From contig OZ024869.1 of the NCBI GenBank assembly GCA_964017185.1, forward strand, positions 62,448,931-62,512,930: a DNA stretch of 64,000 nucleotides, given 5' to 3'. The DNA comes from Rugalucina vietnamica. Lineage: Eukaryota; Mollusca; Bivalvia; Lucinida; Lucinidae. Under the pieces are notes generated by a model. The model was given only the letters and a program-made list of their open reading frames with translations. It had not been told where the DNA came from and ran no database searches. This document shows positions 28,390-51,515 of this stretch, one piece after another; within the stretch, counting starts at the first letter, position 1; every line of letters begins with the position of its first letter. The position numbers were made by a program, and so were the translations under genes.

Positions 28390-29399
28390 ACCCACCCCCA
28401 TGCATGGACCCTTGGGTCTAGCCCTTATGTGGTATCTATGTTGTGTTGTAAGGATGAACGCTTTCTGACACATAGTTGTCAAGATATAGACATACAGAAT
28501 ATTTATCTTGGTAACCATTGTATTTCATGTGTCCTAGATTTTGACCTCCAGTCCCACCCCTCGAGTTTGGCAGGTACTTCATACTCCCGGTCCCGAAATG
28601 TATCCAGGCATGTGCACATACTGTTTTACTCTGAAGAAAGCACATCTGATTATTTGTCCTGTGCTTATAAGAGCGTCTAATTTCGGGACACGGAGTATGA
28701 AGTACGAAGCCAAACAGCAAACATGTATTTTGTATGGGCCAAAAATTTCGGGACAATCATAGCTATGTAGGTATATAGGGATTGTGTCACACATTTGTAC
28801 ATTTGATGCTGGTGTATACGTAGCTATCTGGCAGTTAAGTTGCCTCAGTTGTGTAAGTTATAACAGTTACCTTTGTTAGGACGACATAATCGAAATGTAG
28901 ATGGAAAAAGCTATAAAAAAACAGACATTTTTGCGTATTGTCATCATGTTTTAAGGCCTTATGATAGTCCTGAAGCTCTAACTGTTCCTTTCCAAGGAAA
29001 CGGCCGTCAAACATACGTATGATAGACCACTATTGTAAGTTAAGTTCTGTAAGTTGTCATAGCTGACAGTGATAAAAGATAAGTTCATTAAGTTGGACTT
29101 AAGAACATTAGATCAAAACAACATGGCAAGACAGTTATACTGTTGCATCCAGGCTGAGCTAAGTTCGATAAGTTACAATAGTTGCACACAATAGCAAAGC
29201 TAAATGCACGTACATGTCTGCATCTAAGTTAAGTTTGATGAGTTGTATAAGTTAAGCAAGCTGAGTTATATAGGTTTTAGATTAATAACTTGGATGAGTT
29301 AAGTTAAGCAAGTCGCAGTCTGGGCTTAATTAGCTATATGAGTAAGATATGTTATGTGTATCACAGGACAAGCTAAGTTTATTAAGTAGAGTAAGTTAA

Positions 29400-32300
29400 G
29401 CAAGCTAAGTTGAAGACTAAGTTTGATGAGCTGCATAAGTTAAGCGATGAGTTGGATAAGTTGAACAGTAAGTTCGATGAGTTGGATAAGTTGACCGATG
29501 AGTTAGATGAGTTAGAAAATTTGAGCGTTGAGTTAAATAAGTTGGATAAGTTGTACATTAAGCTCGATGAGTTGCATGAGTTATACGCTGAGTCAGGTAA
29601 GTAGAGCGACGAGTTGGGTAAGTTGCATAAGTTTAAAAGTAAGTTGGATTAGTTATACCTTGAGTTCGATGAGTTGGATAAGTTGAACAGTAAGTTGGAT
29701 GAGTTGGATAAGTTGTTAGCTGAGTTCGATGAGTTGGATAAGTTGCATGTTGATTTGGATGAGTTCGATAAGTTGAACAGTAAGTTGGATGAGTTGGATA
29801 AGTTATACGCTGAGTTCGATGAGATGGACAAGTTGCATGCTGAATTCGATGAGTTGCATAAGTTGAACTATAAGTTCGTTAAGTTTGATAAGTTGAACAG
29901 TGAGTTGGATGAGTTGGATAAGTTGTAAGCTGAGTTCGATGAGTTGGATAATATGTAAGCTGAGTTGGATGAGTTGGATAAGTTGTAAGCTGAGTTGGGT
30001 AAGTTGCATAAGTTGAACAGTAAGTTCGATGAGTTCGATAAGTTGAACAGTAAGTTGGATGAGTTGGATAAGTTGTAAGCTGAGTTCGATTTGTTGCATA
30101 AGTTGAACAGTAAGTTGGATGAGTTGGATAAGTTGTAAGCTGAGTTGGGTAAGTTGCATAAGTTGAACAGTAAGTTCGATGAGCTCGATAAGTTGAACGG
30201 TGAGTTGGATGAGTTGGATAAGTTGTAAGCTGAGTTCGATGAGTTGCATAAGTTGAACAGTAAGTTGGGTGAGTTGGATAAGTTGTAAGCTGAGTTGGGT
30301 AAGATGCATGTTGAACAGTAAGTTCGATGAGTTCGATAAGTTAAACAGTAAGTTGGATGAGTTGGATAAGTTGTAAGCTGAGTTCGATGAGTTGGATAAG
30401 TTGCATGTTGAGTTGGATGAGTTGGATAAGTTACACAAAGAGTTCGATGAATTGGATAAGTTGCATGCTGAGTTGGATGAGTTGCATAAGTTGAACTATC
30501 AGTTATTTAATTTAGATAAGTTGAACAGTAAGTTGGATGAGTTGGATAAGTTGTAAGCTGAGTTGGGTGAATTGCATAAGTTGAACAGTAAATTGGATGA
30601 GTTGGATAAGTTAAGCTGAGTTGGGTAAGTTGCATAAGTTGAACAGTAAGTTCGATGAGTTTGATATTTCGAACAGTAAGTTGGATGAGTTGGATAAGTT
30701 GTAAGCTGAGTTGGATGAGTTGGATAAGTTGCATGTTGAGTTGGATAAGTTATATGAAGAGTTCGATGAGTTGTATAAGTTGCATAATGAATTGGATGAG
30801 TTGCATAAGATGAACTATAAGTTCGTTAAGTTCGATAAGTTGAACAGTAAGTTGAATGAGTTGGATAAGCTGTAAGCTGAGTTGGGTAAGTTGCATAAGT
30901 TGAACAGTAAGTCGGATGAGTTGGATAAGTTGGGTAAGTTGCATAAGTTGAACAGCAAGTTCGATGAGTTCGATAAGTTGAACAGTAAGTTAGATGAGTT
31001 GGGTAAGTTGTAAGCTGAGTTCGATGAGTTGGATAAGTTAAACGAAATGTTCGATGAGTTGGATAAGTTGCATGCTGAGTTGGATGAGTTACATAAGTTG
31101 AACAGTAAGTTCGATGAGTTCGATAAGTTAAACAGTAAGTTGGATGAGTTGGATAAGTTGTAAGCTGAGTTCGATGAGTTGGATGTTGCATGTTGAGTTG
31201 GATGAGTTGGATAAGTTACACAAAGAGTTAGATGAGGTGGATAAGTTGCATGCTGAGTTAGATGAGTTGCATAAGTTGAACTATCAGTTCGTTAAGTTAG
31301 ATAAGTTGAACAGTAAGTTGGATAAGTTGCATGCTGAGTTGGATGAGTTGCATAAGTTGAACTATAAGTTCGTTAAGTTGGATAAGTTGAACAGTAAGTT
31401 GAATGAGTTGGATAAGCTGTAAGCTGAGTTGGGTAAGGTGCATAAGTTGAACAGTAAGTCGGATGAGTTGGATAAGTTGGGTAAGTTGCATAAGTTGAAC
31501 AGCAAGTTCGATGAGTTCGATAAGTTGAAAAGTAAGTTAGATGAGTTGGGTAAGTTGTAAGCTGAGTTCGATGAGTTGGATAAGTTATACGAAATGTTCG
31601 ATGAGTTGGATAAGTTGCATGCTGAGTTGGATGAGTTACATAAGTTGAACAGTAAGTTCGATGAGTTCAATAAGTTAAACAGTAAGTTGGATGAGTTGGA
31701 TAAGTTGTAAGCTGAGTTCGATGAGTTGAATAAGTTGCATGCTGAGTTCTATGAGTTGCATGAGTTGAACTATAAGTTCGTTAAGTTGTAAGCTGAGTTG
31801 GGTAAGTTGCATAAGTTGAACAGTAAGTTGGATAAGTTGGATAAGTTGTAAGCTGAGTTGGGTAAATTGCATAAGTTGAACAGTAAGTTCGATGAGTTTG
31901 ATAAGTTAAACAGTAACTTGGGTGAGTTGGATAAGTTGTAAGCTGAGTTAGATGAGTTGGATAAGTTGCATGTTGAGGTGGATGAGTTGGATAAGTTATA
32001 CGATGAGTTCGATGAGTTAGATAAGTTGCATGCTGAGTTCAATGAGTTGCATATGTTGAACTTTAAGTTCGTTAAGATCGATAAATTGAACAGTAAGTTG
32101 GATGAGTTGGATAAGTTGTAAGCTGAGTTGGGTAAGTTGCACAAGTTGAACAGTAAGTTGGATGAGTTGGATAAGTTATACGAAATGTTCGATGAGCTCG
32201 ATAAGTTAAACAGTAAGTTCGATGAGTTCGATAAGTTGAACAGTAAGTTGGATGAGTTGGATAAGTTGTAAGCTGAGTTCGATGAGTTGCATAAGTTGCA

Positions 32301-33530
32301 TGCTGAGTTCGATGAGTTGCATAATTTGAACTATAAGTTCGTTAAGTTTGATAAGTTGAACAGTAAGTTGGATGAGTTGGATAAGTTGTAAGCTGAGTTG
32401 GGTAAGTTGCATAAGTTGAACAGTAAGTTCGATGAGTTTGATAAGTTGAACAGTAAGTTCGATGAGTTGGATAAGTTGTAAGCTAGGTTGGAGGAGTTGG
32501 ATAAGTTGCATGTTGAGTTGGATGAGTTGGATAAGTTATGCGAAGAGTTCGATGAGTTGGATAAGTTGCATGCTGAGTTGGATGAGTTGCATAAGTTGAA
32601 CTATAAATTCGTTAAGTTCCATAAGTTGAACAGTAAGTTGGATGAGTTGGATAAGATGTAAGCTGAGTTTGGTAAGTTGCATAAGTTGAACAGTAAGTTG
32701 GATGAGTTTGATAAGTTGTAAGCTGAGTTGGATAAGTTGCATAAGTTGAACAGTAAGTTCGAAGAGTTCGATAAGTTGAACAGTAAGTTGGATGAGTTGG
32801 ATAATATGTAAGCTGAGTTGGATGAGTTGGATAAGTTGTAAGCTGAGTTGGGTAAGTTGCATAAGTTGAACAGTAAGTTCGATGAGTTCGATAAGTTGAA
32901 CAGTAAGTTGGATGAGTTGGATAAGTTGTAAGCTGAGTTCGATTTGTTGCATAAGTTGAACAGTAAGTTGGATGTTATGGATAAGTTGTAAGCTGAGTTG
33001 GGTAAGTTGCATAAGTTGAACAGTAAGTTCGATGAGTTGGATAAGTTGCTTGCTGAGTTGGATGAGTTGCATAAGTTGAACTATAAGTTCATTAAGTTCG
33101 ATAAGTTGAACAGTAAGTTGGATGAGTTGGATGTTGTAAGCTGAGTTGGATAAGTTGAACAGTAAGTTCGAAGAGTTCGATAAGTTGAACAGTAAGTTGG
33201 ATGAGTTGAATAAGTTGTAAGCTGAGTTGGGTAAGTTGCATAAGTTGAACAGTAAGTTTGATGAGTTGGATAAATTGTAAGCTGAGTTCGATGAGTTGGA
33301 TAGGTTGCATGCTGAGTTCGAAAAGTTGCATAAGTTGAACAGTAAGTTGGATGAGTTGGATAAGTTGTAAGCTGAGTTCGATGAGTTGGATAAGTTTTAC
33401 GCTGAGTTCGATGAGTCGGATAAGAAGCATGCTGAGTTCGATGAGCTGCATATGTTATACGCTGGGTTTCGATGAGTCGGATAAGTTGCATGCTGAGTTC
33501 GATGAGTTGCATAAGTTGCATGTAAGTTGG
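29400..33530 (+). repeat. Left-arm minisatellite array, 15/30 bp unit
   Basis: The unit is made of 15-mers such as GAGTTGGATAAGTTG and AACAGTAAGTTCGAT, joined into 30 bp and longer higher-order blocks (recurring 'gttgtaagctgagttgggta'). About 4.1 kb. The left edge decays gradually through 29040-29400 ('taagttaagttcgataagtt'), as expected for an old array edge, and the right edge is sharper. Since 15 and 30 are multiples of three, long frames with LDKLN/FDE-type or QLIQLTV-type periodic peptides appear; these are by-products. Confidence 0.95.
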
Positions 33531-34419
33531 AACGACTGCAATGATTTAGCAAGATTATCAATTTGTAATTAACATGTACCCGGCATCTGGTGTCAAACTA
33601 ATGACCCGTCTAGTAACTATACTGAAAAAAAAAATGAAAACGCCACAATCAGTTTTCTGTAAAATTTGTACATACTATGATTTTATTAAGTACAAATGCA
33701 TGTTGTTTAGATATCAGACGACAAAATGCAAGAAATTTGTTTTTTATTTAACGTGGAAAGCATGTTATTTATTCAATGTCGACCAAAGAAGTGCCAAAGT
33801 AAGTAAATGATGCAACACACGTGCGCAATCATTGTTGGATCAATGAAACGATTAAAATTAGCTATGTGTCCCCATTCCAAACTTCAATATACTGCTCAGC
33901 AGTAAACTGACAGCATGTTTGTACTGCGATTTGGTACGTATTATATTGAGGATGCAAATAAATTTTTAAGTTTTAAAATGTGCGCATGTGCAGTTAATTT
34001 GTTTACTTGCTTGCACTATTTTGGTCATCTCTTTAGTGTTTATCAAGCTGAAAATATGGTTTGTGCATTGTCGGTGTACAAATGACTTTGTGTGATATAG
34101 AGCCAAATCGGAAACTGTAGGTGTTACATCCTTAAATGAGAAAAATGATAGTTTGTTGCATTTTTTTTTTCAGTATAGTTATCTTAGATATTTGGTCATG
34201 TAGGACAGTTTTGGTATTAGACGACCCTACACCTAACAATTACACGTATCACTTCAGCTGGACCACATTTCTGAAACTCTCTGGATCGGTATAATTTAAC
34301 CTGAGGCACTTCAAAAGACCGACTAGCACGTGGAAGGTTAATCAGTACGATATATCGCATGTTTTTCGATACTCTTCGGTTGCTCGCACACTACTGAAGT
34401 ATTTGTAAAGCTGGGTCAA
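33531..34419. other. Unassigned DNA in the foldback centre
   Basis: A/T-rich sequence. A 78-codon frame at 33574-33810 has no recognisable domain. No repeat seen. Confidence 0.4.
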
Positions 34420-34556
34420 GTTAGCAGAAAATTTGCTGCAGCAAAAAACGGTCAAGTTAGCAGCAAATTTGCTGCAGCAATTAACGGTCAAGTTAGCAGC
34501 AAAATTGCTGCAGCGAAAAACGGTCAAGTTAGCAGCAAATTTGCTGCTAGAAGAAA
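34420..34556 (-). repeat. GCTGCAGC tandem repeat, block 1
   Basis: Four ~38 bp units 'acggtcaagttagcagcaaa' + 'tttgctgcagcaa'. It is the reverse complement of the family at 2889-3195. It directly precedes the ~145 bp satellite. Confidence 0.85.
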
Positions 34557-35689
34557 AATAGAAAAAAAAGTCGACTAATTCTTTTGTTTTAGTCTGGCTG
34601 TCATCACTATAGAAAACGATGACGAAGGCCGAAAACAGAACTTTTCTATCTCACCTATGGTTGGATTTATGGTGTACCAAACCCTCCCAGCAGAAAAATT
34701 GAAAAAAAAAAAAAATGTCAAAGATTTTTTTCGTTTTAGTCTGGCTGTGGCTGTCATCGCTATAGAAAACGATGACGAAGGCCGAAAACAGACCTTTTCT
34801 ATCTCACCTATGGACGAAGTTATGGTGTACCAAACCCTCCCAGCAGAAAAAATGAAAAAAAGTTTTGTCAAAGATTATTTTCGTTTTAGTCTGGCTGTCA
34901 TCGCTATAGAAAACGATGACGAAGGCCGAAAACAGAACTTTTCTATCTCACCTATGGGCGGAGTTATGGTGTACCAAACGCTCCCAGCAGAAAAAATGAA
35001 AAAAAAATGTCAAAGATTTTTTTGTTTTAGTCTGGCTGTCATCGCTATAGAAAACGATGACGAAGGCCGAAAACAGAACTTTTCTATCTCACCTATGGGC
35101 GGAGTTATGGTGTACCAAACCCTCCCAGCAGAAAAAAATGAAAAAAAAAATTGTCAAAGATTTTTTTCGTTTTAGTCTGGCTGTCATCGCTATAGAAAAC
35201 AATGACGAAGGCCGAAAACAGAACTTTTCTATCTCACCTATGGGCGGAGTTATGGTGTACCAAACCCTCCCAGCAGAAAAAAATGAATTTTTTTTTCGTC
35301 AAAGATTTTTTTCGTTTTAGTCTGGCTGTCATCGCTATAGAAAACGATGACGAAAGCCGAAAACAGAACTTTTCTATCTCATCTATGGGCGGAGTTATGG
35401 TGAACCAAACCCTCCCAGCAGATTAAATGAAAAAAAAAATTGTCAAAGATTTTTTTGGTTTTAGTCTGGATGTCATCGCTATAGAAAACGATGACGAAGG
35501 CCAAAAACAGAACTTTTCTATCTCACCTATGGACGGAGTTATGGTGTATCAAACCCTCCCAGCAGAAAAAATGAATTTTTTTATAAGGATTTTTTTTTTC
35601 GTTTTAGTCTGGCTGTCATCGCTATAGAAAACGATGACGAAGGCCGAAAACAGAACTTTTCTATCTCACCTATCGGCGGAGTTATGATG

Positions 35690-35785
35690 CAAATTTGCTG
35701 CAGCAATTAACGGTCAAGTTAGCAGCAAAATTGCTGCAGCAAAAAACGGTCAAGTTAGCAGCAAATTTGCTGCTAGAAGAAAAAT
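35690..35785 (-). repeat. GCTGCAGC tandem repeat, block 2
   Basis: Same units as 34420-34556, again followed by 'gaagaaaaatagaaaaaaa' and 'gtcgactaattcttttg', which shows that the two were copied as one block with their flanking satellite. Confidence 0.85.
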
Positions 35786-36856
35786 AGAAAAAAAATGTCG
35801 ACTAATTCTTTTGTTTTAGTCTGGCTGTCATCACTATAGAAAACGATGACGAAGGCCGAAAACAGAACTTTTCTATCTCACCTATGGTTGGATTTTTGGT
35901 GTACCAAACGCTCCCAGCAGAAAAAATGAAAAAAACTTTGTCAAAGATTTTTTTCGTTTTAGTCTGGATGTCATCGCTATAGAAAACGATGACGAAGGCC
36001 GAAAACAGAACTTTTCTATCTCACCTATGGGCGGAGTTATGGTGTACCAAAACCTCCCAGCAGAAAAAATGAAAAAAAAATTCAAAGATTTGTTTTTGTT
36101 TTAGTCTGGCTGTCAGTCCTATAGAAAACGATGACGAAAGCCGAAAACAGAACTTTTCTATCTCACCTATGGGCGGAGTTATGGTGTACCAAACCCTCCC
36201 AGCAGAAAAAATGATTTTATTTTTAAGGATTTTTTTCGTTTTAGTCTGGCTGTCATCGCTATAGAAAACGATGACGAAGGCCGAAAACAGAACTTTTCTA
36301 TCTCACCTATGGGCGGAGTTATGGTGTACCAAACCCTCCCAGCAGAAAAAATGATTTTATTTTTAAGGATTTTTTTGTTTTAGTCTGGCTGTCATCGCTA
36401 TAGAAAACGATGACGAAGGCCGAAAACAGAACTTTTCTATCTCACCTATGGGCGGAGTTATGGTGTACCAAACCCTCCCAGCAGAAAAAATGATTTTTTT
36501 TTTTTGTCAAAGATTTTTTTCGTTTTAGTCTGGCTGTCATCGCTATATAAAACGATGACGAAGGCCGAAAATAGACCTTTTCTATCTCACCTATGGACGA
36601 AGTTAGAGTGTAAAAATAAAAAAAAAAATGTCAAAGATTTTTTTTATTTTAGTCTGGCTGTCATCGCTATGGAAAATGGTGACGAAGGCCGAAAACAGAA
36701 TTTTTCTATCTCACCTATGGGCGGAGTTATGGTGTACCAAACCCTCCCAGCAGAAAAAAATGAAAAATTTTTTGTCAAAGATTTTTTTTCGTTTTAGTCT
36801 GGCTGTCATCGCTATATAAAACGATGACGAAGGCCGAAAACAGAACTTTTCTATCT

Positions 36857-37101
36857 AAAGTATATAAACTTTATTTATTTTACTTCAATTACACAGAAAG
36901 CTCGTTGAACTTATATACGCGTTCTTGAAGGCGCGGATGTTGGCGTTATGTGATCAAACGTGGTGGAGGAAACCGGAGAACCCGGGGAAAACCACCGAAC
37001 CTGGACGGGCGACCACTACCCTGCCACATGCCTTGACCCGGATTCGAACCCGGATCGCCGTGGTGACAAGCGAGTGCGTTATCCACTACGCTATCCAGGC
37101 C
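36857..37101 (-). mobile_element. tRNA-derived SINE with Meta-type core
   Basis: Flanked by an exact 11 bp duplication CTTTTCTATCT (36846-36856 and 37102-37112) taken from the satellite. Minus strand: head GGGCCTGGATAGCGTAGTGG with A box TAGCGTAGTGG, B box GGTTCGAATCC, then a central GGGTTCTCCGGTTTCCTCC segment resembling the Meta domain of MetaSINEs (known from molluscs and other animals). The tail ends with AATAAAGTTTATATACTTT. It appears full length at ~245 bp and moved after the satellite had formed. Confidence 0.88.
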
Positions 37102-38365
37102 CTTTTCTATCTCACCTATGGACGGAGTTAGAGTGTAAAAGTGAAAAATATTTTGTCAAAGATTTTTTTTTTATTTTAGTCTGGCTGTCATCGCTATAGA
37201 AAACGGTGACGAAGGCCGAAAACAGAATTTTTCTATCTCACCTACGGGCGAAGTTATGGTGTACCAAACCCTCCCAGCAGAAAAAAATGAAAAAAAAATT
37301 GTCAAGGATTTTTTTCGTTTTAGTCTGGCTGTCATCGCTATAGAAAACGATGACGAAGGCCGAAAACAGAACTTTTCTGTCTCACCTATGGGCGTAGTTA
37401 TGGTGTACCAAACCCTCCCAGCAGAAAAAATGAAAAATATTTTGTCAAAGATTTTTTCGTTTTAGTCTGGATGTCATCGCTATAGAAAACGATGACGAAG
37501 GACGAAAACAGAACTTTTCTATCTCACATATGGGCGGAGTTATGGTGTACCAAAACCTCCCAGCAGAAAAAATGAAAAAAAAAATTGTCAAAGATTTTTT
37601 TTGTTTTAGTCTGGCTGTCATTCCTATAGAAAACGATGACGAAGGCCGAAAACAGAACTTTTCTATCTCACCTATGGGCGGAGTTATGGTGTACCAAACC
37701 CTCCCAGCAGAAAAAAAATGAAATTTTTTTTTGTCAAAGATTTTTTTCGTTTTAGTCTGGCTGTCATCGCTATATAAAACGATGACGAAGGCCAAAAACA
37801 GAACTTTTCTATCTCACCTATGGACGGAGTTAGAGTGTAAAAATGAAAAAAATTTTGTCAAAGATTTTTTTGGTTTTAGTCTGGCTGTCATCGCTATAGA
37901 AAACGGTGACGAAGGCCGAAAACAGAACTTTTCTATCTCACCTATGGGCGGAGTTATGGTGTACCAAACCCTTCAAGCAGAAAAAATGAAAAAAAAAATG
38001 TCAAAGATTTTTTTCGTTTAAGTCTGGGCGGAGTTATGGTGTACCAAACGCTCCCAGCAGAAAAAATGAAAAATATTTGTTAAAGATTTTTTTCGTTTTA
38101 GTCTGGCTGTCATCGCTATAGAAAACGATGACGAAGGCCGAAAACAGAACTTTTATATCCACCTATGGGCGGTGTTATGGTGTACCAAACCCTCCCAGCA
38201 GAAAAAAATGAAAAATGTTTTGTCAAAGATTTTTTTTCGTTTTAGTCTGGCTGTTATTGGTATAGAAAACGATGACGAAGGCCGAAAACAGAACTTTTCT
38301 ATCTCACCTATGGGCGGAGTTATGGTGTACCAAACCCTCCCAGCAGAAAAAATGAAAATAATTTT

Positions 38366-39140
38366 GTCTCAAATTCGTGGTTCGAGTAGCCTCGGACAAG
38401 CAGTTTTTCTTTGAAGATGGCTGCTCTATTTAAGTTATCGTCATTATTCGTGGATGTCCTAACAAATCTGATCAGTTCACCCTTAATAAGGCCTTTGAAC
38501 ATCGCTTTTGGGTGTGTTGATTGTCTGTGGATGTACTGAAACTTTTCACTTGGTTTGATGTACGGTTTGAAGAGATTTAAATCTATGGCCTTTAAATATG
38601 GTGGTGTCCAAGAATGTTCCCGCGTCTTCAGATATTTCGTACTTAAATTTCAGGCCGGTCGGATGCATTTTATTTGCCGCATCCAAGAATTGTCTAGCTT
38701 CTGTTTCATTTCCCGTATATAAGGCAAACGCGTCATCTCGGAATCTCAGCCATTCGAACATGTTGCAAAATTCGTTTTTCGAGATAGTAGATAACTATGT
38801 CGCAAATTGCAGGAGATGCACTACTCCCATTGACTGGTAGAAGTTTTTACCATTGAAGCGGAAATTGTTGCATTTCACAGCTATATCGACCAACTTACAA
38901 AATGATTCAACTTTCGGGCGCCTGATGCCTTCAACAAAGTTGTGTCGATCTGTCGTTTCCAACGTGTTTCTAACTCCATTGACTGCTTCCTCATGAATTA
39001 TTATTGTGTACATGCTTTCGTAGTCAAGTGTATTGATCATATCAGATGTATCTTTGACTAATAATGAGATACTAGTTTTGAGCAAAAATTTGAAATTTGT
39101 TCCTACCCCACGCCCACCAACTACCAGAGACATCATCAAA
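38366..39140 (-). pseudogene. Penelope-like reverse transcriptase fossil
   Basis: Minus-strand frames show RT features in order: LDYESMYT (first catalytic Asp region), VKCNNFRFNGKNFYQSMG (N-N-x-F-x-F...Q-x-x-G), RFRDDAFAL (catalytic DD), FLDTTIFKG, then KGELIRFVR and RGY of the C-terminal part. This pattern fits Penelope-like elements, in which 'NN.F.F....Q..G' and 'FLDv.i' are typical. The fragment is broken in several places and lacks the N-terminus and any GIY-YIG endonuclease. Its 3' side ends exactly where the satellite begins. Confidence 0.75.
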
Positions 39141-39641
39141 GACTTTGATGACCTGGCGCGCAGAATGCGGACATGACTATGGATCTACATGAAAAAAGCA
39201 AGAAGAAAATAAGATCCTTTTCTGTTGAAAATAACTAAAAAGTCGACATTCAATCGGACAACATAGCCTTAGAGAATTATCTAACTGAAACAAAAATTGA
39301 ACTGGCAAACCTGCATAACAGCAACAAATATAGCAGAAATTTTCAAAATTTCCAGATGAAAATTATAGCACAAATGGTATCAATGATAGCTTTCAAGCTG
39401 TGCAACATCCTTTGTGACTGTCGGGTCTGACCATTGAAGAAAGGTGTCAGCACACCAACACACAAAAACACATGTACAATAACCAAGCCCAATTTTAAAA
39501 GCCTATTATACAGCGGGTGTAACCTAATAAATTATAGTAAAATACTCTACATATACTAGTTTCCAGATAATAAACAATAAAGCAACCAGGAACTCTCACA
39601 ATCAGAGAAAGGTCTTGACCTAACTAGATGTGCTACAGACG
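39141..39641. other. Unassigned DNA in the foldback centre
   Basis: A/T-rich, with no recognisable motif or repeat. Confidence 0.4.
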
Positions 39642-39882
39642 TTAAAGGCCTCGTCACACATAAGCAAAAATCTCTCCACGTAGACTTGCGTTTTATTTCG
39701 AAAAAGGTTATTTGTTTGTTTGATGTATTGCCTTACGTCCCTTTCAACATTCAACTTTCCGTCATGGCCATAGCTGTTGACTGGGACGTAAAGCAATAAA
39801 TCAATTAAACAAAAGCTATCTTTCGCAATTAAACGCACGTTTGCGTCAAGCGATTTTCGCTTAGGTGTGACGGCTCCTTAAG
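39642..39882. mobile_element. Small TIR MITE (~240 bp)
   Basis: Left end AAAGGCCTCGTCACACATAA and the reverse complement of the right end AAGGAGCCGTCACACCTAAG match over ~28 bp with a few differences. The interior has 'gactgggacgtaaagcaata', also found in diverged form at 40045-40085, which resembles the tail of aquatic-animal SINEs. Confidence 0.6.
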
Positions 39883-41039
39883 CAAACGAAACATTTGGTA
39901 GGCCCAGTGAACCGTCCACACATATAAGCCTTTGTGGCTTTGTTGGATGGTTATATTTCAAGCACTTGTTGAATGTCATGACATCCTCATTTTCTGTAAA
40001 AATCCCATAAAGTGGAGGCAACGTTCCGACATGACCTTAGCTATTGACTGGGACGGAAAGCATCAATTCAAACAAACAAACAAACTGAACAGCAGGCCAT
40101 TTTGAGCAGCTATATATGAAACATACGAGGGTCGAGCAAAAAGTTCGAGGACATTCTTGATAATGTTTATTATGGACGTCCGAATGTTTTCGTTTTTTTA
40201 CAAGTGTAATAATGGTCTATCGTCAATATTCATGTAAAATGTTATTTGTCGAATCATATGTTTGAGTGGTCAAATTACATCGACAAACATGAGGGGTTTG
40301 CTACCCCGGAGCACGCCGTAAAATATCTGTTTACGTTTTTATGAATATAAAAATATTTTAAAAATGCGCTTTCCAAACCTCCTTGAATTAAAGAAATATT
40401 GAAAATGTTATAATTTGGCTTGAAATGAGAACTTTCAGTTTATTGCCTTCCTAAGACGACGCTACCGCGACAATTTTTGAAAGTCTAAGCTAAAATTCAG
40501 GAAAAATGACGTTCCTGATAAATGGCGGAAACTTGCACATAGATACAATTTATGTGACACTTTAGAATAAAATCTACAGAAACGTTTAATTTGTTACAGC
40601 CAGCACTGAAGCATTAACAGTGTACAATGATGTGCAAAGTGTTAGTCATGACGAAAGCACCCTGTATACCGTTGATGCAACCAAATTTGTTACGGCATAG
40701 ATTGATGCAACATTTCACGAAGGTAGGGAGAAATTGACCATTAATTCAATTTTACAGGCATTAATGTTAGGATGTCTGGGCCGTGCCTTTGTGGGAAAAA
40801 GAAGTAAGGATACCTTCGGTTTTTTGCCATAAGTAGTTTGTTAAAAAACCTTATCTTGTGACAGAAATAATAAATTCCATTGAAGAAATACACGAAAATT
40901 GATTATGTTTGGCTTGCTAATTGCTCATATCCATCATCGACGAAAGAAGAATGGCCGCAGAAGTATATCATTCTTGCCGGCTAAATTATACCTCAGATTC
41001 ACTTTGAGGGGAAACGAAAACATAGCCACTGTCGGATAA
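39883..41039. other. Foldback centre with a mariner-type end
   Basis: At 40126-40160 'acgagggtcgagcaaaaagt' followed by 'tcgaggac' resembles terminal inverted repeats of mariner elements. No matching right end and no transposase were found, so only a scrap remains. The rest shows nothing recognisable. Confidence 0.4.
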
Positions 41040-44000
41040 TGTTGGAAATGTTTAGCACCAACACAACTTATCCAACTCATAGAACTCAGTGTATAACTTA
41101 TCCAACTCATCCAACTTACTGTTCAACTAATGCAACTTACCCAACTCAGCTTACAACTTTTCCAACTCATCCAACATACTGTTCAAATTGTGCAACTTAC
41201 CCAACTCAGCTTACAACTTATCCAACTCATCCAACTTACTATTCGACTTATCGAACTTAACGAACTTATAGTTCAACTTATGCAACTCATCCAACTCAGC
41301 ATGCAACTTATCCAACTCATCGAACTCATCGTATAACTTATCCAACTCATCGGACTCAACATGCAACTTATCCAACTCATCGAACTCAGCTTACAACTTA
41401 TCCAAATCATCCAACTTACTGTTCAACTTATCCAACTCATCGAACTCAGCTTACAACTTATCCAACTCATCCAACTTACTGTTCAACTTATCGCACTCAT
41501 CGAGTTTACTGTTCAACTTATCGAACTCATCAAACTTACTGTTCAACATATGCAACTGACCCAACTCAGCTTACAACTTATCGAACTCATCCAACTTACT
41601 GTTCAATTTATCGAACTCATCGAACTTACTGTTCAACTTATGCAACTTACCCAACTCAGCTTACAACTTATCAAACTCATCCAACATACTGTTCAACTTA
41701 TGCAACTCACCGAACCTAGCTTACAACTTATCCAACTCATCGAACTTACTGTTCAACTTATCTAACTCATCGAACTTACTGTTCAACTTATGCAACTTAC
41801 CCAACTCAGCTTACAACTTATCCAACTCATCCAACTTACTGTTCAACTTATGAAACTCACCCAACTCAGCTTACAACTTATCCAACTCATCCAACTCACT
41901 GTTCAACTTGTCGAACTTAACGAACTTATAGTTCAACTTATGCAACTAATCCACCTCAGCATGCAACTTATCCAACTCATCGAACTCAGCTTACAAATTG
42001 TCCAACTCATCCAACTTACTGTTCAACTTATCGAACTTAACGAACTTATAGTTCAACTTATGCAACTCATCCAACTCAGCATGCAACTTATCCAACTCAT
42101 CGAACTCAGCGTATAACTTATCCAACTCATCCAACTCAACATGCAACTCATCAAACTCATGGAACGCAGCGTATAACTTATCCTTATCCAACTCATCGAA
42201 CTTACTGTTCAACTTATGCAACTTATCCATCTCATTCAACTTACTGTTCAACTTATCCAACTCATCGAACTCAGCTTACAAATTATCCAACTCTTTCAAC
42301 TTACTGTTCAACTTATCGAACTTACTGTTCAACTTATGCAACTTACCCAACTCAGCTTACAACTTATCCAACTCATCCAACATACTGTTCAACTAATGCA
42401 ACTTACCCAACTCAGCTTACAACTTATCCAACTCATCAAACTTATTGTTCGACTTATCAAACTTAATGAACTTATAGTCCAACTTATGCAACTCATCCAA
42501 CTCAGCATGTAACTTATCCAACTCATCGAACTTATCGTATAACTTATACAACTCATCCAACTCAACCTGCAACTTATCCAACTCATCCAACTCAGCCTAC
42601 AACTTATCTAACTCATCCAACTTACTGTTCAACTTATCCAACTCATCGAAGTCAGCTTACAACTTATCGAGCTCATCGAACTTACTGTTCAACTTATGCA
42701 ACTCATCCAACTCAGCTTTCAACTTATCCAACTCATCCAACTTACTGTTCAATTTATGCAACTTACCCAACTCAGCTTACAACTTATCCAACTCGTCCAA
42801 CTTACTGTTCAACTTATCGAACTTCACGAACTTATAGTTCAACTTATGTAACTCATCCAACTCAGCATGCAACTTATCCAACTCATCGAACATTTCGTAT
42901 AACTTATCCAACTCAGCTTACAACTTGTCCAACTCATCGAACTTGCTGTTCAACTTATTCAACTTACTGTTCCACTTTTCGAACTTAACGAACTTATAGT
43001 TCAACTTATGCAACTCATCCAACTCAGCATGCGACTTATCCAACTCATCGAACTCAGCGTATAACTTATCCAACTCATCCAACTCAACATGCAACTTATC
43101 CAACTCATCAAACTCAGCTTACAACTTATCCAACTCATCCAACTTACTGTTCAACTTATCCACCTCATCGAACTCAACTTACAACTTATCGAACTCATCC
43201 AACTTACTGTTCAACTTATCGAACTCATCGAACTTACTGTTCAACTTATCGAACTCATCGAACTTACTGTTCAACTTATGCAACTTACCCAACTCAGCTT
43301 ACAACTTATCCAACTCGTCCAACTTACTGTTCAACTTATGTAACTTACCCAGCTCAGCTTACAACTTATCCAACTCATCCAACTTACTGTTCAACTTATC
43401 GAACTTAACGAACTCATAGTTCAACTTATGCAACTCATCCAACTCAGCATGCAACTTATCCAACTCATCGAACATTTAGTATAAATTATCCAACTCATCG
43501 AACTTACTGTTCAACTTATACAGCTTACCCAACTCAGCGTATAACTTATGCAACTCATCAAACTCAGCATGCAACTTATCCAACTCATCAAACTCAGCGT
43601 ATAACATATCCAACTCATCCAACTCAACATGCAACTTATCAAACTCATGGAACTCAGCGTATAACTTACCCAACTCATCGAACTTACTGTTCAACTTATG
43701 CAACTTATCCAACTCATCGAACTTACTGTTCAATTTACCCAACTCATCGAACTTATTCTTTAACTTATCCAATTCAGCGAACTCAACATGCAACTTAGCC
43801 TACTTATCGAACTTAACATGGAACTCAGCGTATAACTTATCCAACTCATCGAACTTATTCTTTAACTTATCCAACTCAGTGAACTCAACATGCAACTTAC
43901 CCTACTTATCGAACTTAACATGGAACTCAGCGTATAACTTATCCAACTCATCGAACTTACTGTTCAACGTATGCAACTTATCCAACTCATCGAACTTACT

Positions 44001-47000
44001 GTTCAACTAATGCAACTTACCCAACTCAGCTTACAACTTATCCAACTCATCCAACGTACTGTTCAACTTATCGAACTCATCGAACTCAGCGTATAACTTA
44101 CCCAACTTATCCAACTCATCATGCAACTGATCAAACTCATGGAACTCAGCGTATAACTTATCCAAATCATCCAACTCAACATGCAACTTATACAACTCAT
44201 CCAACTCAGCCTACAACTTATCTAACTCATCAAACTTACTGTTCAACTTATCCAACTCAGCTTACAACTTATCGAACTCATCGAACTTACTGTTCAACTT
44301 ATGCAACTTACCCAACTCAGCTTACAACTTATCCAACTCATCCAACTTACTGTTCAACTTATCGAACTTACTGTTCAACTTATGCAACTTACCCAACTCA
44401 GCGTATAACTTATCCAACTCAACATACAACTTATCAAACTCATGGAACTCAGCGTATAACTTATCCAACTCATACAACTCAACATGCAACTTATCCAACT
44501 AATCCAACTCAACCTACAACTTATCTGACTCATCCAACTTACTGTTCAACTTATCCAACTCTTCGAACTCAGCTTACCACTTATCGAGCTCATCGAACTT
44601 ACTGTTCAACTTATGCAACTTATCCAACTCATCGAACATTTCATATAACTTATCCAACTAATCCAACTCAGCTTACAACTTCTCCAAGTCATCGAACTCA
44701 GCTTACAACTTACCCAACTCATCTATCTTACTGTTCAACTTATCGAACTCATCGAACTTGCTGTTCAACTTATGCAACTTACCCAACTCAGCTTACAACT
44801 TATCCAACTCATCCGACTTACTGTTCAACTTATGCAACTTACCCAACTCAGCTTACAACTTACCCAACTCTTCCAACTTACTGTTCAACTTATCGAACAT
44901 CACGAACTTATAGTTCCACTTATGCAACTCATCCAACTCAGCTTACAACTTATCCAACTCATCGAACTCAGCTTACAACTTACCCAACTCATCTAACTTA
45001 CTGTTCAACTTATCGAACTCATCGAACTTGCTGTTCAACTTATGCAACTTACCCAACTCAACTTACAACTTATCCAACTCATCCAACTTACTGTTCAACT
45101 TATCCAACTTAACGAACTTATAGTTCGACTTATGCAAATCATCCAACTCAGCATGCAACTTATCCAACTCATCCAACTCAGTGTATAACTTATCCAACTC
45201 AACCAACTCAACATGCAACTTATCCAACTCACCAAACTCAGCTTACAACTTATCCAACTCATCCAACTTACTGTTCAACTTATCCAACTCATCGAACTCA
45301 GCTTACAACTTATCCAACTCATCCAACTTACTGTTCAACTTATCCAACTCATCGAACTCAGCTTACAACTTATCGAACTCATCCAACTAACTGTTCAACT
45401 TATCGAACTCATCGAACTTACTGTTCAACTTATGCAACTTACCCAACTCAGCTTACAACTTATCCAACTCATCCAGCTAACTGTTCAACTTATGTAACTT
45501 ACCCAACTCAACATGCAACTTATCCAACTCATCAAACTCAGCTTACAACTTATCCAACTCATCCAACTCACTGTTCAACTTATCCAACTCATCGAACTCA
45601 GCTTACAACTTATCGAACTCATCCAACTAACTGTTCAACTTATCGAACTCATTGAACTTACTGTTCAACTTATGCAACTTACCCAACTCAGCTTACAACT
45701 TATCCAACTCATCCAACTAACTGTTCAACTTATGTAACTTACCCAACTCAGCTTACAACTTATCCAACTCATCCAACTTACTGTCCAACTTATCGAACTT
45801 AACGAACTTATAGTTCAACTTATGCAACTCATCCAACTCAGCATGCAACTTATCCAACTCATCGAACATTTCGTATAACTTATCCAACTCATCTGTTCAA
45901 CTTATGCAGCTTACCCAACTCAGCGTATTACTTATGCAACTCATCGAACTCAGCATGCAACTTATCAAACTCATCAAACTCAGCGTATAACATATCCAAC
46001 TCATCCAACTCAACATGCAACTTATCAAACTCATGGAACTCAGCGTATAACTTACCCAACTCATCGAACTTACTGTTCAACTTATGCAACTTATCCAACT
46101 CATCGAACTTATTCTTTAACTTATCCAACTCAGCGAACTCAATATGCAACTTACCCTACTTATAGAACTTAACATGGAACTCAGCGTATAACTTATCCAA
46201 CTCATCGAACTTACTGTTCAACTTATGCAACTTATCCAACTCATTGAACTTACTGTTCAACTAATGCAACTTACCCAACTCAGCTTACAACTTATCCAAC
46301 TCATCCAACTTACTGTTCAACTTATCGAACTCATCAAACTCAGCGTTTAACTTATCCAACTCATCCAACTCAACATGCAACTTATCAAACTCATGGAACT
46401 CAGCGTATTACTTATCCAACTCATCCAACTCGACATGCAACTTATCCAACTCATCCAACTCAGCTTACAACTTATCTAACTCATCCAACTTACTGTTCAA
46501 CTTATCCAACTCATCAAACTCAGCTTACAACTTATCGAACTCATCGAACTTACTGTTCAACTTATGCAACTTACCCAACTCAGCTTACAACTTATCCAAC
46601 TCATCCAACTTACTGTTCAACTTATCGAACTTCACGAACTTGTAGTTCAACTTATGCAACTCATCCAACTCAGCATGCAACTTATCCAACACATCGAACT
46701 CATCGTATAACTTATCCAACTCATCCAACTCAACATGCAACTTATCCAACACATTGAACTCAGCTTACAACTTATCGAACTCATCGGACTTACTGTTCAA
46801 CTTATGCAACACCCAACTCAGCTTACAACTTATCCAACTCATCCCATTTACTGTTCAACTTATGCAACTTACCCAACTCAGCTTACAACTTATCCAACTC
46901 ATCCAACATACTGTTCAACTAATGCAACTTACCCAACTTAGCTTACAACTTATCCAACTCATCCAACTTACTGTTCAACTTATCGAACTCATCGAACTCA

Positions 47001-47450
47001 GCGTATAACTTATCCAACTTATCCAACTCAACATGCAACTTATCAAACTCATGGAACTCAGCGTATATCTTATCCAACTCATCCAACTCATCCAACTCAG
47101 CTTACAACTTATCTAACTCATCCAACTTACTGTTCAACTTATCCAACTCATCGAACTTATTCTTTAACTTATCCAACTCAGTGAACTCAACATGCAACTT
47201 ACCCTACTTATCGAACTTAACATGGAACTCAGCGTATAACTTATCCAACTCATCGAACTTACTGTTCAACTTATGCAACCTATCCAACTCATCGAACTTA
47301 CTGATCAACTTATCCAACTCATCGAACTTATTCTTTAACTTATCCAACTCAGCGAACTCAACATGCAACTTACCCTACTTATCGAACTTAACATTCAACT
47401 TAGGTTACTCAACTTACTGAACTCATCGAACTTAACTTAAATATTAAGAC
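41040..47450 (-). repeat. Right-arm minisatellite array, inverted
   Basis: Reverse complement of the left-arm unit ('caacttatccaactcatcca', 'acttactgttcaac'). About 6.4 kb, longer than the left arm. Higher-order blocks of about 300-400 bp are visible, for example repeats of 'catggaactcagcgtataac' around 43640, 43920, 44130, 46020 and 46390. It decays toward 47450-47640. Periodic frames on both strands are by-products. Confidence 0.95.
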
Positions 47451-48859
47451 ATATTATAAAGTATGATATCCTAGGTTCCCCAACCTATATGCTAACTATT
47501 ATAACTCATCCAACTCAACTTACATTGTTTAGTATCCATGAATAGTTCGTTCTACAATCAGCTACTATTTGTTATATTAAATGCAACTATAACAACTTAT
47601 CCTACTCAACTTACATCTTTGATCATCCCGTATGGTATAAGTATCTTCAATATATAAGGAATATAACGGTCCACAGAATAAATACGGTAAGCTGCAAGCT
47701 GAGCTAGATGAGTTAAGCTAAGCTGAGAATTCGTTGCGTTTTTTATATGCATACTTTTTGTCCCTATGTGCTGAGCATGATGAGCTGAGTAAGTTGAGCT
47801 GAGTTGAGATGTGACGCTGTACCTTTCAATTGTGTAGATATTCGGGACCGGGAGTATGAAGTATAAGCCTCGAGTTTGGTGCCATGGAATTTAATTCAAC
47901 CCTAAAGGGTATCTATGATACAAATAGGAATACATTCCTATAAGTATTTGTTAAGATATGAACTTAGAGATGAAAAATCACTATGTAAATAGCACATTTT
48001 CAAAGTGACCTAGATTTTGACTTTTAGCCCCACCCCCGGGCATGGACCCAGGGTCCGAACTCACAGAAACAAAGCAAACCATATAGGATAGCTATGTTAA
48101 AATATGAATGGTTTCTGAACGTTGGTTCATGAGATATACACCACCAGAGAAACTTAATCCAAAACTTTGACCCAAATTAAAGGTGACCTAGATTTTGACC
48201 TCTAGCCCCACCCCAGGCATGGGCCCAAGATCCGAACTCACAGAAATAAAGCAAACCCTATAGGGTACCTATGGTTAACATATCAATGGTTTCTGATCAT
48301 TGGTTCATGAGACACCACCAGAGAAACTTTAACAAAAACTTTGACATAAATTCTACGAACGTTCCGGAATAAAGAACGAACGAACTAACGAACATGCGAA
48401 CGGAAAAGCGAAAACTATATACCCGTCGACATAAATGCCGGGGGTATAACAAGAGATCTGATTAATTAGTTGTCGTGGATTTTTAAGTTCACTTCTAGTT
48501 GCAATTACTATGATTTAAAAATACTCCTGGAACTTCAGATGCAGACTGGTTCTTTTGGGAACCTAACGGCCCAGGATTTGCGTATACGCAAATTTTGCAT
48601 ATATGCAAATTTTGCTCACGTGAGTAAAAGTAAATTTTGCTTTGCGGTCACATGAGCTTTTGAGGTCTTGTTATTTCAGTTAAAATTGTCAAAGATGTGA
48701 TTTTTAAATTGGATAAAATTTATATCAGTAAAAGTAGTTAAAATTAATAGACTGTTCAGGTTTAGGAGACGTAGAATGATGCCATACTGCCTTGGATTTG
48801 GGTTTGCAATGGGGTTAGGACATGAAAAGCAGGAATGGCGAACAGAAAGATCTAGTGAT

Positions 48860-48985
48860 TAGTATGATTGGATAGTGCTACAGACATTTACAGGTGAGCA
48901 ATGGGTGGAAAACTTCAGAATGACTAGGCAAACCTTCACTAAGGTGTGCAGGGTTCTTGAACCTGATCTTTCTCCAATGGACAAG
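48860..48985 (+). pseudogene. Harbinger transposase, N-terminal fragment
   Basis: The frame reads YDWIVLQTFTGEQWVENFRM, then TRQTFTKVCRVLEPDLSPMDK. This matches the N-terminal 'F...FRMs..tF..lc..L.P.L' region of PIF/Harbinger transposases. A stop lies just upstream in the same frame (after ERSSD), and the pearl-like insert begins right after MDK. Confidence 0.7.
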
Positions 48986-50699
48986 TAGCCCAAGGGCAAC
49001 GATCGCTCACCTGAGAGTCATCAAGTACAGTCACTAGACAAAGTAATTGGGTTTTTTACCATATATGGGTATGGTGGCCAGCTCAGTCATGTGACCTTGA
49101 AACCCTACTTACATCAACAGAATAGCTCTTGTCTGGATTGTGTATCCTCTTGTCTGCCATTTTTGTTCACTTGAAAAAATCATCTAACAAGGACGGGGTC
49201 CTAGAATGACCCTCGGGGTGGGGCCATATTTGACCCCAGGGGCATGATTGGCAGGATTTATGTAGAGCTCCACATGACATTGTTGTATATCAAATATACA
49301 AGCTTTGTGTCATGCTGTTGCAGAGAAGATTTTTCATGTATTTCCATAATAAATCTATGGTAGATAATGACATGCCTGGGGCGTGGCCTGTATGGACCCC
49401 AGGGGCACCGCTGGCAGCATTTGTAAAGGAGAGTATTAGACATTAGTCCACACAACATATGAAAGCTCTCCCAGGGCCATATGGTTTCGGAGAAGAAGAT
49501 TTTTTTTCCAATTGTAAGTCTAAGGGAGCTATTGACCCCCCCCCACCGGGGAAGGGGGTGCATTTCTGACCCCAGGGACATTCTTGGCAGGATTTATGTA
49601 AAGCTTCACATAACATTGCTGCATACCAAATATAGAAGCTTTGGCTGTTGTGGTTTCAGAGAAGAAGTTTTTTTCATGTATTTTCCATTGTAAGCCTATG
49701 GCAGATAATGATGCCCCAGGGCGGGGTCTGTATGGACCCCAGGGCCACCGTTAGCAGGATTTATAAAGAGGACCACTATACATGTACATTGCTACACAAA
49801 AAAAAATACAAAAGCTATGGGCTTTGCGCTTCCGGAGAAGAAAATTTTTATGTTTTTCCCATGACGCCCCTGGGGCGGGGCCCGTACGGACCCCAGGGGC
49901 ACTATTGGCAGGATTTATAAAGAGGACCACTATACATTGCTACGCAAAATATGAAAGCCCTGGGCCTTGTGGTTTTGGAGAAGTTTTTTTTATGTTTTTC
50001 CCATGACGCCCCCAGGGCGGGGCCCGTATGGACCCCAGGGGCACAGTTGGCAGGATTTATAAAGAGGACCACTATACATTGCTACACATTTAATATGAAA
50101 GCTCTGGGCCTTGTGGTTTCGGAGAAGAAGATTTTTTTATGTTTTTCCCATTGTATGTCTATGGGAGCTAATGACCCCCGGAGCGGGGCCATTTTTGACT
50201 CCAGGGGCAAGGTTGGCAGGATTTATAAAGAGGACCACTATACATTGCTACACACAAAATATGAAAGCTCTGGGCCTTGTGGTTTCGGAGAAGAAGTTTT
50301 TTTTTTTTGTTTTTCCCATGACGCCCCCGGGGTGGGGCCCGTATGGACCCCAGGGGCACCGTTGGCAGGATTTATAAAGAGGACCACTATACATTGCTAC
50401 ACACAAAATACCAAAGCTCTTGGCCTTGTGGTTTCAGAGAAGAAGATTTTTTTTGTTTTTCCCATTGTAAGTCTATGGGAGCTATCTGTTGCCATGGAAA
50501 CCAGAGTTCTGATCAGACCTGGTCCAAAGCCTAATACAACCTTTCCCCCTCCTCAATGATGCTTTAGATAAAATTTGATCACGATTGGCCTTGTTGTCTT
50601 AGAGATATTCAAGTTTGAAAATGTGAACAGACAGACGGACGCCGGCTTGACTACTATACTATAAGCTCACCTTGTGAGCCTTCGGCTCAGGTGAGCTAA
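48986..50699 (+). mobile_element. Pearl-like element inserted in the Harbinger transposase
   Basis: 5' hairpin TAGCCCAAGGGC, then GCTCACCTGAG (49005-49015). 3' hairpin with TGAGCCTTCGGCTCAGGTGAGCTA ending near 50697 (positions 50674-50697). The core has about eight ~150-165 bp units marked by 'gtttcggagaagaagatttt' and 'gaccccaggggca'. The ACGG tract is reduced to 'acagacggacgcc'. Outside the element, codons for MDK and NTVRDV join without a gap, which fixes its borders closely. Confidence 0.8.
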
Positions 50700-51063
50700 A
50701 AATACTGTACGAGATGTAATAGATGTGCAAAAACAAGTAGCACTCACCATCTACTTGCTCTCCACTCCAACTGAGTACAGAACAATTGGGAATTTATTTG
50801 GTGTGGCAAAATCCACTACTCTCAAGTGCATTCACAGGGTTTATGAAGCTTTAGTTGAAAATCACTTGCAGGAGTTTGTAACTATTCCAACTGTTAATGA
50901 TGTAAAGGATGTCATCAAAGGCTATGATGAGACATGGGGATTTCCTAACTGTGGCGGGGCCATTGATTGCACCCACATACCGATCATAGGTCGATCAGAA
51001 GCACATGGTGACTACCTTAAGTTCTTAACCGTAAAGGATATTACTCTCTTATTATGCAAGTAG
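50700..51063 (+). pseudogene. Harbinger transposase, central fragment (DDE_Tnp_4)
   Basis: Continues the N-terminal fragment as NTVRDVIDVQKQVALTIYLL, with EYRTIGNLFGVAKSTTLKCI (helix-turn-helix-like) and WGFPNCGGAIDCTHIPI, the signature of the first catalytic Asp of PIF/Harbinger transposases. After YLKF the similarity stops and the frame ends at a stop. The second Asp and the Glu are missing, so the copy is inactive. Confidence 0.85.
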
Positions 51064-51249
51064 TCTGTGATGATATTTGAAATCCCTTGCAAAGTTAAGC
51101 GATCCCTTTAACCCCTAGGCCTCCAATAGCTTTCTACTGAAAGTTCTAAGGCGGTAGTGTTATTTTTATTAGGTCAGATTTGTTGTATTGTTTTATTCAG
51201 CCATTTTGGGAATAATTGCAGTTTGAATTAATGCATTTATAACACTTTT

Positions 51250-51515
51250 ATGGCACGAATTAAAAAATACTCACGTATGCAAATTTTGCTTTCCGGTCAC
51301 ATGGACAGATTTGCATATATGCAAAATTTGCGTATACGCAAATTGAGATTTGCACTTGGTCTAGACCAAGTGCAAATTTTGCGTATAAGCAAAATTTGCG
51401 TATACGCAAAAGTGGAAAAATTGCGGTCACATGGACAGATTTGCTTATGTGAGTAAAATTTGCGTATACGCAAAATTTGCATACGTGAGTAAATCTGGCC
51501 ATGTGACCGGGGCTT
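51250..51515. repeat. GCGTATACGC-rich subterminal repeats
   Basis: 'aatttgcgtatacgcaaa', 'tttgcatatatgcaaa' and a central palindrome 'cacttggtctagaccaagtg' recur. Related copies lie at 48577-48640. They probably serve as transposase binding sites of the Harbinger element. Confidence 0.65.

Follow-up and report, generated by a model that had tools for sequence, protein, structure and literature searches.

FB of Drosophila melanogaster and the sea urchin element TU combine subrepeat arms with a replaceable middle and short target duplications (9 bp for FB, 8 bp for TU); they measure a few kb, whereas the bivalve family described here reaches 14-37 kb, and they are set apart from it by description and not by end sequence. 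The duplication made by Galileo is 7 bp. In the portions of the Galileo reports consulted (PMC3573991, PMC3688188), that element resembles the present family in its long, internally repetitive, Foldback-like terminal inverted repeats (TIRs) and in having a known transposase superfamily, and differs in that this is the P superfamily. Tetris/DAIBAM, from the Drosophila virilis group, is close in layout and in its spectrum of derivatives. According to the consulted part of its description (PMC4079207), it too has long TIRs with internal tandem repeats, a variable non-coding middle, 8-10 bp duplications and short derivatives that share its ends, and its autonomous partner was not found; its TIRs reach at most 1,735 bp, whereas the arms measured in four giants of the present family are about 3.6-7 kb long, and Tetris/DAIBAM has a 220-bp repeat unit, a tentative Mutator placement and three structurally complete copies (PMC4079207). 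Unusual in the bivalve family are its size, its number of intact giants and its Merlin-like ends. Merlin hallmarks are a terminal 5′-GG, TIRs at least 24 bp long and duplications of 8 or 9 bp in the section of the source consulted (PMC8101967), and in molluscs Merlins are scarce and short, with a mean of 1,635 bp in a curated library, in the consulted part of a further report (PMC10294476).

The window analyzed here is a stretch of 64,000 nucleotides from the bivalve Rugalucina vietnamica (C1:62448931-62512930, assembly of 1.09 Gb), in which an earlier note had described a 19.3-kb foldback-type element with a 12-bp target duplication. Its foldback layout and great length were borne out, as was insertion by duplication of the target, while the length of that duplication was not. 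The corrected element spans 28569-47869 (19,301 bp, tips GGC...GCC), and its target duplication is 8 bp, TCGAGTTT (Table 1). It probably represents a foldback-form DNA transposon of the cut-and-paste type that is non-autonomous, with a Merlin-type transposase predicted from its sequence to act on it in trans. With somewhat less assurance, we favor the wider reading that the foldback family is built on ends of Merlin/IS1595 type and that its minisatellite-armed units of 14-37 kb would be moved whole by the transposase of a transposon about 1.6 kb long. The parts of the element follow in the order B end (837 bp), B arm, core left, 36-/144-bp arrays, core right, A arm, and A end (467 bp).

Table 1. 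Coordinates of the element, its parts and its target-site duplications in the window.
Feature	Position	Strand	Remark
Left target-site duplication TCGAGTTT	28561..28568	.	exact match to 47870-47877
B-type terminal repeat GGCAGG + TACTTCATACTCCCGGTCCCGAA	28569..28597	+	89 exact GGCAGGTACTTCATACTCC in genome
B subterminal region	28598..29405	+	common to other copies
Imperfect inward A-type tip inside B end	28682..28711	-	2 mismatches in 23 (28682-28704)
B arm, G-rich minisatellite, 30/90-bp unit	29406..33531	+	tandem array
Core left part	33532..34413	.	common to two other giant copies, 92-93%
36-bp and 144-bp tandem arrays in middle	34414..38368	.	144-bp unit also in C4 and C6 22M copies
Broken open frames	38323..39184	-	Penelope-type look by eye, presumably a retroelement fragment, probably nested
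Core right part	39989..41060	.	whole or part in three other giant copies, 92-97%
A arm, B-arm minisatellite inverted	41061..47402	-	tandem array
A subterminal region	47403..47840	-	common to other copies
A-type terminal repeat, inward GGCTTA + TACTTCATACTCCCGGTCCCGAA	47841..47869	-	139 exact GGCTTATACTTCATACTCC in genome
Right target-site duplication TCGAGTTT	47870..47877	.	8 bp

The 23-bp exact inverted repeat is present as reported (28575-28597, +; 47841-47863, -; a mean of 0.00 matches in 100 shuffles with up to three mismatches allowed), and so are the two oppositely oriented minisatellite arrays that serve as arms, detected at 29446-33531 (B) and 41063-47402 (A) with GC skews of about +0.6 and -0.6, respectively. 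The 12-bp direct repeat exists as letters (28559-28570 and 47868-47879) and overstates the duplication. Comparison with other pairs of the family moves both tips outward by 2 bp. The outer CC is a pair of host bases at the left copy and belongs to the tip at the right one, and the reverse holds for GG; both dinucleotides pre-exist in the host and therefore lie outside the duplication. A 12-bp duplication was thus ruled out by the placement of the family tips, by the host copies, and by the 8-bp rule across pairs. It had been thought longer than is usual for hAT, MULE or FB elements; the actual 8 bp, to which chance-matching bases are added, is of ordinary length.

The insertion lies in a host repeat, whose flanks had been said to read through once the element is removed. 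Joining the flanks at the 8-bp site gave 2,231 first-look candidates, from which 40 were scored and 12 fetched. Each of the 40 scored host-repeat copies matched at 94-95% identity without the element, and all 12 fetched copies were contiguous over the junction, providing the empty site in paralogous host copies that the earlier note had proposed to look for. At the insertion place they read CCTAGAGTTTGG (nine copies), CCTAGACTTTGG (two) or CCTTGAGTTTGG (one), and across the 8-bp empty site CCTAGAGTTTGGTGCCATGG was found in 9 of the 12, with a one-base difference in the other three. The exact 12-mer, whose occurrence in uninterrupted host units had been named as evidence against an insertion, was in none of the 12.

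Searching the genome for the 23-bp terminus with up to three mismatches yielded 408 matches (reversed control, 0). There are two end types of 29 bp each, both starting with GGC and identical except at bases 4-6, A being GGCTTA+TACTTC... and B GGCAGG+TACTTC...; the family ends read GGCTTA/GGCAGG...TACTTCATACTCC. Exact 19-base copies number 139 for A and 89 for B, compared with 0 for the reversed-pattern control. Pairing was carried out with 100 of the 139 A ends (to C12:19.5M) and 69 of the 89 B ends (through C12:30.0M). Among these tips, 44 neighboring exact-tip pairs lie less than 60 kb apart, and 39 of them are inward A/B pairs (22 B+A-, 17 A+B-); the remaining five (B+B+, A-A-, A+A+, A-B-, A-A+) include no inward pair. 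A and B ends therefore pair almost only with each other. A single unique giant is ruled out by the 408 terminus matches and the 39 inward pairs, and the element in the window is one copy of many in a multi-copy family. Short pairs (103 to 7,838 bp) make up 21 of the 39, and the other 18 are giants of 13,661 to 36,738 bp, 387 kb together.

Other flanked pairs, for which a search had been suggested, were found. With the tip set at GGC, an exact 8-bp duplication was found at 32 of the 38 inward pairs tested (C11:39815324 was left out), and one more pair had a single mismatch, while mismatched (off-diagonal) pairings of the flanks gave no exact 8-bp match in 1,406. The duplication was absent from five of the 38, one of them a giant, and is exact in 17 of the 18 giants. 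Outside the 39, flanks were without a match in two more giants, whose B tips have decayed (C2:50150490, C8:15279072), and in L013, an inward A/A pair of 1 kb in which one A tip has decayed. The 32 duplicated sites favor A at positions 2-4 and T at positions 5-7. Subterminal sequence is likewise held in common. Pieces of at least 290 bp from the B ends of other copies are 93-98% identical to that of the window, and the whole 467-bp A end is matched by five copies at 95-99%, others matching in pieces and down to 88%. Median end identities are 95% (A) and 89% (B), values that take in stretches running on beyond elements that are very short or deleted, and from which no age is drawn. Since an inward A-type tip lies within the B end (bases 1-29 of the A end against bases 143-114 of the B end, 87% identity), the outermost 143 bp look like a whole mini-element, in which that tip would form a hairpin with the B tip.

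The 29-bp ends carry the 5′-GG tip, a TIR of at least 24 bp and a duplication within the 8-9 bp by which Merlins are recognized. Merlins differ in being short and in encoding a DDE_Tnp_IS1595 transposase, whereas in this family, which reaches 37 kb, no such transposase was found. The Merlin/IS1595 transposase domain PF12762 has 56 matches in the genome, and none of them falls within the 39 inward pairs (catalogued to C12); we therefore speak of a non-autonomous element with Merlin-like ends and do not file the family as Merlin. A finder that required GG tips, applied to 31 of the 56 Merlin loci, returned six candidates, one of which (L066) was set aside because it had no exact duplication; the other five are complete local Merlins with GG tips and exact 8-bp duplications. 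Within the first 19 bases, their left and right ends differ at bases 4-6 (L043, L047, L084), 4-7 (L058) or 3-6 (L059), a pattern drawn from five copies of about two related tip families. Without the GG requirement, the finder gave seven candidates in six of 30 loci. Five of these span the Merlin match, four being GG-tipped and the same elements as before, and the fifth, L066, not; at L064, a GG pair lies beside the Merlin match and differs at bases 4, 5 and 7. Judged by sequence, then, the GG tips, the 8-bp duplication and the end-specific bases 4-6 of the family (GGC-TTA-TACTTC versus GGC-AGG-TACTTC) match those of the local Merlins.

Under the reading we favor, a Merlin (IS1595-like) transposase encoded elsewhere would bind both GG-tipped ends, take up the whole unit and insert it at an 8-bp staggered cut. 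Searches by tip, variant tip and PF12762 found no autonomous partner. At the 31 of 56 Merlin loci examined, family ends were absent to a reach of about 1.5 kb beyond the match, and variant-tip searches gave nine and four sites, none near a Merlin by reading. One Merlin situated 7.4 kb away from an A end is bounded by different tips of its own. A candidate partner, the Merlin gene at C12:10613704, was rejected, as it is part of an independent element of 1.6 kb, which has the tips GGATAG/GGAAGT and is flanked by an 8-bp duplication of its own.

The tips of hAT elements are CAG or TAG, and those of P elements CA. The GG tip, together with a base 4-6 pattern equal to that of the local Merlins, makes it unlikely that the family is moved by a different superfamily that makes 8-bp duplications (hAT, P, 8-bp MULE or Zisupton/KDZ), although the search that found no partner transposase covered Merlin only, most foldbacks seem to be Mutator elements, with exceptions, in the part of the source consulted (PMC4079207), and Galileo, as far as its partly consulted reports go, is a P-superfamily element with foldback-like repeats. 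If the ends are indeed of Merlin type, they fit the idea that foldbacks arise independently from different transposons, which the same partial source puts forward citing others (PMC4079207). In a literature search that left most subscription journals uncovered, no earlier case of a foldback tied to Merlin was found, the two words co-occurring in one plant review only; if true, this would be the first within the literature searched, and foldback architecture would gain a possible new superfamily of origin.

The structural features of a foldback element, namely inverted arms of subrepeats, a target duplication and a variable middle with no gene in common between copies, are all present. The inverted arms of the element are about 80% alike. 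Between copies, B arms are 82-93% and A arms 82-86% alike, and A compared with B arms 80-85%, from one element or from different ones. Homogenization of the two arms inside one element was rejected, since the two arms of one element (80-83%) resemble each other no more closely than do A and B arms taken from different elements; the arms thus descend as parts of copies. In the middles, coding content was judged from open frames by eye, with Pfam applied to the window frames only. No gene common to the middles was seen in five of them, including 17 kb of C6 41M, and ten open frames of the window, the Penelope-like ones included, gave only sub-threshold Pfam matches. The middle of the C8 giant has nothing in common with the window core. 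Insertions contribute further variation: the B end of the C8 copy contains a LINE-type open frame of 1,186 aa (by eye), the window middle has the Penelope-like fragment, and the C6 41M copy has gained another inverted minisatellite, whose unit is 40 bp long. A search of the C6 41M middle for further TIRs with 8-bp pairs gave no convincing nested element. Some short copies run from arm to arm without a middle (L010, L011, L012, L016), others have one arm (among them L009, L015, L017), and L018 and L096 are little but tips.

Such a spectrum could also arise if short elements inserted and then grew in place by array expansion, without any 20-kb unit having moved; arrays are prone to length change, and pair lengths span 103 bp to 36.7 kb. 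Growth in place is nonetheless quite improbable. None of the 39 inward pairs is between 7.8 and 13.7 kb long, and the B arms of longer copies align across 3.4-4.6 kb at 83-89%, above the values for B against A. Moreover, the same core pieces recur between the arms of the window, C4, C6 22M and C6 41M giants at 92-97%; the giant layout is therefore older than those insertions. With movement of whole units by a Merlin-type transposase, arm length may still change through slippage, unequal exchange or interrupted gap repair, and these processes would also account for the short derivatives of 0.1-8 kb, whether joined arm to arm or tip to tip. Arms or ends joined by misassembly, or DNA trapped by chance between two small elements, can practically be set aside: such repeats are hard to assemble and assembly sequence alone was examined, yet the exact outer duplications of 17 of the 18 giants each enclose one A and one B end, and the host repeat is continuous at the empty site.

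To our knowledge, the family, if its members moved as wholes, would be among the largest foldback elements, and the 17 giants with exact duplications make the cargo size limits of Merlin-type transposition testable. Its large inverted arms may promote inversions by analogy with Galileo, for which this is reported in the portions consulted (PMC3573991, PMC3688188). The family also shows how a minisatellite can spread genome-wide inside a transposon. The exact 31-base arm monomer has 1,316 copies, 659 forward and 657 reverse; of the 100 copies listed, 97 are located inside family ends or no more than about 5 kb from them (counted by reading), and three, at two places on C2, lie away from them. 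In the three giants among these matches, all left-arm monomers are on the + strand and all right-arm monomers on the - strand, a rule that breaks down at C1:61.48M, where partial copies have monomers on mixed strands, and at C2:22.33M, where they point outward.

At the B end of the giant element, the outermost 143 bp comprise the B tip and an imperfect, inward-facing A tip and look like a complete mini-element, which suggests that the B end may have started as a MITE. One tip-to-tip copy, L096 (C6:67979345-67979447), is 103 bp long and is flanked by an exact 8-bp duplication. Both of its terminal repeats share one identical base change, as if one of them had been copied from its partner.

In the giant copy at 41M of C6 (L039), a further inverted minisatellite, with a 40-bp unit, lies inside the middle of the giant (L039:4304-7652), its C-rich part first and its G-rich part second; no ends were found for this nested array. 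Of the 56 Merlin transposase (PF12762) matches of the genome, 14 fall on contig C11; of the 39 A/B pairs among the tips listed, C11 also has 10.

Beside the giant element, another interval is bounded by a perfect 20-bp inverted repeat, CAAATTTTGCATATATGCAA, and flanked by matching 8 bp. Judged by eye, an open frame within it resembles a Harbinger nuclease; a Pfam search of this frame gave no match above the cut-off. Other tandem arrays also occur in the window.

Positions of features in the window
Feature	Position	Unit length
Outer part of B end	28569-28711	
Tandem array	856-2524	~142-166 bp
Tandem array	49708-50484	~142-166 bp
Related units of the host repeat (insertion target of the giant element)	48005-48352	
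Interval bounded by inverted repeat	48589-51330	
Harbinger-like open frame	50695-51060
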